A DNA stretch of 39,613 bases. Source: an uncultured Rubrobacteraceae bacterium. Its GTDB lineage: Bacteria > Actinomycetota > Rubrobacteria > Rubrobacterales > Rubrobacteraceae. The notes beneath the pieces are model-generated. The model did not search any database and was not told the DNA's origin. It saw only the letters and a program-made list of their open reading frames with translations. The stretch lies in assembly GCA_902806065.1 (NCBI GenBank), contig CADCVE010000043.1:1-39613 (forward strand), read 5' to 3'. The translations under genes were made by a program, and so were the position numbers. Within the stretch, counting starts at the first letter, position 1; the number at the start of each line of letters is the position of its first letter. Of the stretch, positions 37,461 to 37,923 are shown in pieces.

Positions 37461-37479
37461 GCGCTCCGCTGGGGAGCGC
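37461..37479 (+). promoter_or_regulatory. 5' leader hairpin of the Asp/Phe repeat gene
   Basis: GCGCTCC and GGAGCGC form a 7-bp stem around GCTGG. It lies just before the AAGGAGG ribosome binding site and leaves that site free. Such leader hairpins often protect an abundant mRNA from decay; a regulatory role is possible. Confidence 0.45.
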
Positions 37480-37499
37480 AACGATAAGGAGGTTGCGTT

Positions 37500-37814
37500 A
37501 TGAGGCGTATAAAGTTGATTCTCGCGGTAGTGGCGGTTATGGTGGCATCGCTCGCCATGGTGCCGGGTCCGGCGATGGCAGACGACTTCGACTTCGAGGA
37601 GGGCTTCTTCTTCGTCAGCGATGACTTCGACTTTGAGGACGACGATGACTTCGACTTCTTTGGTGACGGCTTCTTCTTCGTCGGTGATGATGACTTCGAC
37701 TTCTTCGATGACGACGATGACTTCGACTTCTCCTTCGGCGGCGATGGTGTCAGCCAGTCCTTCGAGCAGGAGTCCGAGAGCGGCGACGTAGATCAATCGT
37801 TCGACGTTAGTTGA
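37500..37814 (+). CDS. Secreted low-complexity Asp/Phe repeat protein of unknown function
   Basis: This 104-residue protein has a clear signal peptide (MRRIKLILAVVAVMVASLAM, cleavage expected after AMA at residue 27). Residues 28-79 are almost only Asp and Phe: 22 Asp and 19 Phe out of 52. DFDF occurs five times and GFFFV twice, 22 residues (66 bases) apart, so there is an internal duplication. The C-terminus is Ser/Gln/Glu-rich (SQSFEQESESGDVDQSFDVS). AAGGAGG six bases before the ATG, a leader hairpin and a strong terminator suggest high expression as a single gene. I know no family like it; metal binding or self-assembly at the cell surface are guesses. Confidence 0.8.
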   Translation: MRRIKLILAVVAVMVASLAMVPGPAMADDFDFEEGFFFVSDDFDFEDDDDFDFFGDGFFFVGDDDFDFFDDDDDFDFSFGGDGVSQSFEQESESGDVDQSFDVS

Positions 37815-37893
37815 TACCGCTCCAACAACCATGAAGTAATGAGCCGGGGAGGGACAGAGTTTTAAAAGGACTTCTACTCCCCGCCCGTTCTCT

Positions 37894-37923
37894 GGCGCCC
37901 TCTCGGGGGCGCCTCTTCTTTTG
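37894..37923 (+). terminator. Rho-independent terminator of the Asp/Phe repeat gene
   Basis: GGCGCCC and GGGCGCC form a 7-bp GC stem with a 6-base loop, followed by TCTTCTTTTG. It is about 80 bases after the stop codon. A second inverted repeat (CGGGGAG at 37845-37851 with CTCCCCG at 37877-37883) lies in between. Confidence 0.75.

Follow-up and report, generated by a model that had tools for sequence, protein, structure and literature searches.

An Asp/Phe-rich, predicted exported protein of an uncultured Rubrobacteraceae bacterium ends in one unit of an undescribed domain family and may join a cell-surface assembly

The stretch of DNA analysed here (the window) spans 39,613 nucleotides of an uncultured Rubrobacteraceae bacterium and is contig C43 of the genome that we searched (G000; 3.75 Mb, 112 contigs). 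Close to its end lies a real coding gene of unusual composition, whose features are listed in Table 1 and whose product reads, from the N terminus onwards, MRRIKLILAVVAVMVASLAMVPGPAMA, DDFDFEEGFFFVSDDFDFEDDDDFDFFGDGFFFVGDDDFDFFDDDDDFDFSF, GGDG and VSQSFEQESESGDVDQSFDVS. An earlier reading made from the letters alone (the sequence-only reading) had recognised this gene correctly, and its counts agree exactly with the translation: behind the signal peptide, 41 of 52 residues are Asp or Phe, with five DFDF motifs (at residues 29, 42, 50, 65 and 74) and two GFFFV blocks spaced 22 residues apart (35 and 57). The mature part (residues 28-104) contains neither Lys nor Arg and carries a net charge of -32, while the binomial chance of the Asp/Phe composition is about 3e-32 per position against a background D+F content of 9.5%. 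Export of the protein is predicted from the pattern of its signal peptide, which is conserved in the paralogues C96 and G035:C191. A reverse-strand frame of 300 aa lying over the same ORF was considered and rejected as a shadow of biased codons.

Table 1. Features of the window gene, pairs of domain genes and partner genes, and architectures of the family.
Feature	Position or members	Strand	Basis or remark
Leader hairpin 1, 7 bp	37461-37479	+	Folds at -15.1 kcal/mol
Leader hairpin 2, loop holds GATAAGGAG (ribosome binding site)	37475-37499	+	-10.7 kcal/mol
Ribosome binding site AAGGAGG, ATG 7 nt further on	37486-37492	+	Sequence
ORF, 104 aa, D/F-rich predicted exported protein, 21-residue unit at its end	37500-37814	+	Translation of 37500-37811
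Signal peptide, residues 1-27, predicted cleavage after AMA	37500-37580	+	n-/h-/c-region pattern
Asp/Phe-rich segment, residues 28-79	37581-37736	+	41/52 D/F
C-terminal unit VSQSFEQESESGDVDQSFDVS, 21 residues (84-104), equal to family-domain positions 1-21	37749-37811	+	HMM matches, selection, column pattern
Intrinsic-terminator-like hairpin and T-rich tail	37894-37921	+	Terminator scan
Domain gene and KAGG-type partner, pairs	L166 343-1237; L167 537-1391; L168 1494-2360 (-); L171 591-1526; L160 2299-3190		
KAGG-type partner with LPxTG	C53, C74, C24		
KAGG-type partner with LPxSG	C18, C106		
Class A: signal peptide, spacer, domain	Most members		Short, free subunits
Class A without spacer	C15, C18, C53, C74, C106 and others		
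Class A, Gly-rich spacer	C41:9091		
Class A, D/F-rich spacer	C1:9989, C96, C91:38923, C1:64024; G035 C191, C525		
Class B: domain, Pro/Ala or other linker, LPxTG	C22:19481, C17:13935, C17:13064, C37; G035 C67, C153:971; G034 C428		
Class C: end after the 21-residue unit	Window; DUF11-like C30, C46, C97, C90; fragment C91; C24, C14		

The same reading had credited the gene with a leader hairpin, a ribosome binding site and a terminator of its own. All three exist on the forward strand, but the two hairpins of the leader (37461-37499) overlap and are mutually exclusive, so that the first competes with the second; the stability of the whole leader relative to shuffled sequences is modest (z -1.9), and about one terminator-like site is expected by chance within the scanned stretch. 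The terminator stem (37894-37913, 8 bp) is followed by TCTTCTTTTG, and a G+C-rich hairpin with a T-rich run also lies 3' of the stop in most paralogues. Folds that place the ribosome binding site in a loop are likewise predicted 5' of G035:C191 (L078) and C18:38328 (L014). No sigma-70-like promoter was found for the ORF, and scanning the window for Rfam families and tRNAs gave no match. Between the window's flanking genes, no syntenic orthologue was found in relatives; in G036 both neighbours are separated by an empty interval of about 210 bp, compared with a spacing of 947 bp in the window. At the other end of the window, two adjacent reverse-strand ORFs (1134-1541 and 1553-1936) presumably encode S-adenosylmethionine decarboxylase-type proteins, and we take the adjoining gene to be spermidine-synthase-like; the ORF at 1553-1936 may be a diverged paralogue of that at 1134-1541.

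The sequence-only reading had further proposed a stand-alone, undescribed protein type with no comparable family, and had suggested that a lack of homologues would point to a non-functional repeat. Homologues were found in the same genome and in a sister species, so the protein survives that test. Used as a query against the whole of G000, it retrieved 25 places, most of which matched mainly its last 21 residues, while the Asp/Phe stretch alone retrieved one other locus, also in G000, with the reservation that bias filters may hide more. The 21 residues form the start of a domain of 88 residues with the consensus VxQxFEQETESGDVDQSFEVSGxGDNGNQCVNVNGxxNTGNLQxQSGxIQYASDIEEFEQDDIGSDLxVxGxSxVTCDQQVNQAAAAG, for which we built family models A2, A4 and A5. 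A search of G000 with the domain model gave 28 loci at E up to 10, of which 26 had E <0.01. The window ORF matched the domain model A2, from which its sequence is absent, at E 2.2e-7, and the unit model A4, of which it is one of 14 rows, at E 2.5e-11. Both a signal peptide pattern and the match to the domain start are present in the protein, but the full domain to position 88 is not: the stop follows positions 1-21, with nothing homologous beyond. By homology, then, the protein is a family member with a partial domain, and to describe it as standing alone was wrong; the sequence-only reading overlooked that residues 84-104 are a conserved module of many paralogues.

With regard to comparable families, the earlier view holds for curated collections, in that Pfam, NCBIfam and PHROGs returned no credible match for the domain family or the window ORF, but not for the genome itself, which holds a secreted paralogous family. 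A PDB profile search gave a single chance hit (E 5.9), a plasmid search yielded no relatives, and a literature search found no work on such proteins in Rubrobacter. Among 39 genomes of the class, 3 have the domain, as do 3 of 396 in a sample of the phylum, all of them in the window's genus, and the only named records with it are of 'Actinomycetota bacterium isolate MAG54' (JAIVIG01). On these searches it is an undescribed, lineage-restricted and predicted exported family, of which the window gene represents one architecture. Conservation of its two cysteines (positions 30 and 77) exceeds 90%, and both are missing together in C96 and in G035:C191, which fits a disulfide.

Spacers are interchangeable within this secreted family, being D/F-rich, Gly-rich or absent, and the Asp/Phe stretch is one of them. 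Spacers of the D/F-rich type combined with the full domain occur in two species. A lone unit, preceded by a signal peptide and followed by a Pro/Ala-LPKTGG stalk, is found in G035:C153:17408. At two loci an in-frame stop splits an exported protein from its linker and unit (L097 901-903, at about 40700 of G000:C24; L098, upstream of 35339 in G000:C14); stop read-through or decay would each explain these cases.

The most interesting part of the window protein is not its Asp/Phe stretch but its last 21 residues. Seven of the eight unit-terminated loci share a common end residue, with C90 stopping three residues short. The unit of the window protein is most similar to that of the full-length D/F member C1:9989 (86% identity), and the units of the DUF11 proteins differ from it, often carrying P-I/V-T-Q-E, which suggests that the common end point arose separately. 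Among the unit-terminated genes the unit is under purifying selection, with a pN/pS of 0.30 (bootstrap 0.20-0.42) that is approximate, synonymous sites being near saturation. DNA similarity of the window gene to full members includes the conserved DNA of the unit and ends at the window's stop codon. Column statistics of the unit give V/Q/F/Q at positions 1, 3, 5 and 7 and V/Q/F/V at 14, 16, 18 and 20, with polar residues between these alternating positions and an invariant SG in the turn, a pattern that looks like two alternating strands about an ESGD turn (V-x-Q-x-F-x-Q, ESGD, V-x-Q-S-F-x-V). The two halves of the window's own unit are alike at 4/7 positions, which by itself is non-significant (threshold tested: 5). 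The unit-terminated class is seen clearly in one genome only, and a G034-specific unit model revealed no clear unit-terminated proteins in G034.

Several members of the family carry a signal for attachment to the cell wall. An LPxTG motif with a hydrophobic stretch and a basic tail is absent from the window ORF but present in paralogues, and G000 has 11 sortase loci, one of them just upstream of the C15 domain gene and another within the exported-protein cluster of C18. Five loci have a second gene about 95 bp downstream of the domain gene, and its product combines a signal peptide with two KAGG-type repeats, a Pro/Ala stalk and a C-terminal LPxTG or LPxSG anchor; this KAGG-type gene looks like a fixed partner of the domain family. 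The DUF11 proteins offer a further comparison. Four DUF11 loci score above the cut-off in G000, and every one has the unit, C24 only past a stop; it sits where G029, a genome without the domain, has LPxTG-type anchors on both of its DUF11 proteins. Based on few genes, this contrast agrees with the unit serving to attach proteins to the surface. The DUF11 protein of G035 has neither unit nor LPxTG-type anchor, and the tagged protein C30 also bears a lipobox-like LAGC and is lipoprotein-like. The window protein differs from LPxTG DUF11 surface proteins in having neither a DUF11 domain nor LPxTG.

Family membership, the architectures, the common end point and selection on the unit can be read directly from the sequences, and from them we infer surface location, stacking, docking and co-assembly of the tag, and a role for the Asp/Phe segment. 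Since the last 21 residues are common to about 28 genes of G000, some of them wall-anchored, the window protein probably joins an undescribed cell-surface assembly. The best reading that we can offer, and one we put forward tentatively, is that of an acidic/aromatic surface protein whose single-repeat C-terminal tag docks onto a sortase-tethered, chaplin-like assembly. The protein would be exported first; its tag would then stack onto family domains, whether of free subunits or of those tethered to the wall, and hang the acidic, aromatic segment from the cell surface. In that position the segment would bind cations or water, or give an adhesive surface. The broader claim, that such a tag is one polymer repeat and recruits unrelated exported proteins (Asp/Phe-rich, DUF11) onto a sortase-tethered full-domain assembly, is conceivable but more doubtful.

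Docking draws its support from comparisons of genes: the 28 domain loci, the LPxTG-anchored members, the sortase loci and the shared end point; the constraint on the unit (pN/pS 0.30), the end of similarity at the window's stop codon and the lone unit on a G035 LPxTG stalk; and the DUF11 contrast between unit and anchor, the putative alternating strands with their SG turn and the D/F spacers joined to a full domain in two species. Structure prediction, which yielded no usable model, counts against it. AlphaFold2 gave a pLDDT of 39 and no solenoid for the domain (26 sequences), and a pLDDT of 54 for the window ORF, with a signal-peptide helix at residues 2-19 and low-confidence coil in the remainder, whereas curlin homologues average 83 (PMC10192328). 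The restriction of a clear unit-terminated class to one genome, the small number of genes behind the DUF11 contrast and the lipoprotein-like character of C30 would also weigh against docking.

Two known systems resemble the proposed assembly. The chaplins of Streptomyces comprise short free forms and longer forms with a sortase signal, and their domain has two conserved cysteines (PMC5618241). Our family is similar in being actinobacterial, exported and single-domain, in its many copies, in its free and sortase forms and in its paired cysteines, but it differs in that its domain has 88 residues and is acidic and Gln/Asn-rich, not hydrophobic; a Pfam search with the window ORF and 26 domain sequences gave no match to PF03777. 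Chaplins are also marked by an amyloid surface layer. We know of no description of a one-repeat C-terminal tag on other proteins among chaplins. The curlin repeat, on the other hand, is a strand-arc-strand of about 23 residues with alternating inward residues (PMC10192328). The unit resembles the repeats of CsgA/CsgB in its alternation, its Gln ends, the Gly in its turn and its length of 21 residues, but it does not keep the curlin motif's Asn/Gln positions, and the curlin repeat model gave no match.

An alternative to docking is that the protein is free and that its Asp/Phe segment acts alone, binding cations or forming strands or condensates, with the unit as an inherited remnant. That this segment could bind cations and form strands, fibrils or condensates was the proposal of the sequence-only reading, and it is in keeping with the strong negative charge and lack of Lys and Arg in the mature part, with the existence of D/F-rich secreted proteins that have no unit (C18:38328, C14:30473), and with a pN/pS of 0.28 over the 34 codons of the segment that can be aligned with G000:C18:38328, a figure based on few differences. 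However, most D/F members carry the full domain, and the conserved unit shares its end residue with that of the unrelated DUF11 proteins, which makes a free protein unlikely.

Slightly less probable still is a truncated, decaying paralogue with little or no function, in which the 3' part of a gene for a D/F spacer and domain was lost and the D/F codons expanded by slippage. The absence of an orthologue between the same neighbours in relatives, the closeness of the unit to that of a full-length D/F member and the apparently broken state of some sister loci (C91, C24, C14) would all suit such an origin. On the other hand, the lost part has left no relic past the stop, the reading frame is intact with a ribosome binding site and terminator in place, the end point is shared with other architectures, and the unit is under purifying selection.

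PEP-CTERM, GlyGly-CTERM and MYXO-CTERM are described as short C-terminal tags on unrelated exported proteins (PMC1569441, PMC3237569, PMC11980579). While the unit is similarly short, C-terminal, placed behind linkers and common to unrelated exported proteins of one genome, it is very improbable that it is a sorting signal of this kind, read and cut by an enzyme, rather than a docking repeat. Those tags have a membrane helix and a basic end, whereas the window protein's last 21 residues show no PEP-CTERM-type signature, no membrane helix or other hydrophobic run and no basic end or any Lys or Arg. A larger secreted domain also begins with a homologous sequence, so that the unit opens longer domains, and in one LPxTG-stalk protein it lies close to the N terminus.

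If docking onto a sortase-tethered assembly is the right reading, this actinobacterial lineage would have a surface-coat family of its own, without detectable sequence relationship to chaplins or curli. Other proteins would be placed on that coat by a very short, portable tag, which could serve as a small, testable surface-display tool. The Asp/Phe stretches would then be a natural acidic-aromatic, low-complexity surface material. Secreted proteins of biased composition seem to be common in G000: for example, a Tyr/Asp-rich exported protein is found at L015 (G000:C1:65681), and another low-complexity exported protein consists of repeated EEPPFE-type units (L160 3305-3739).
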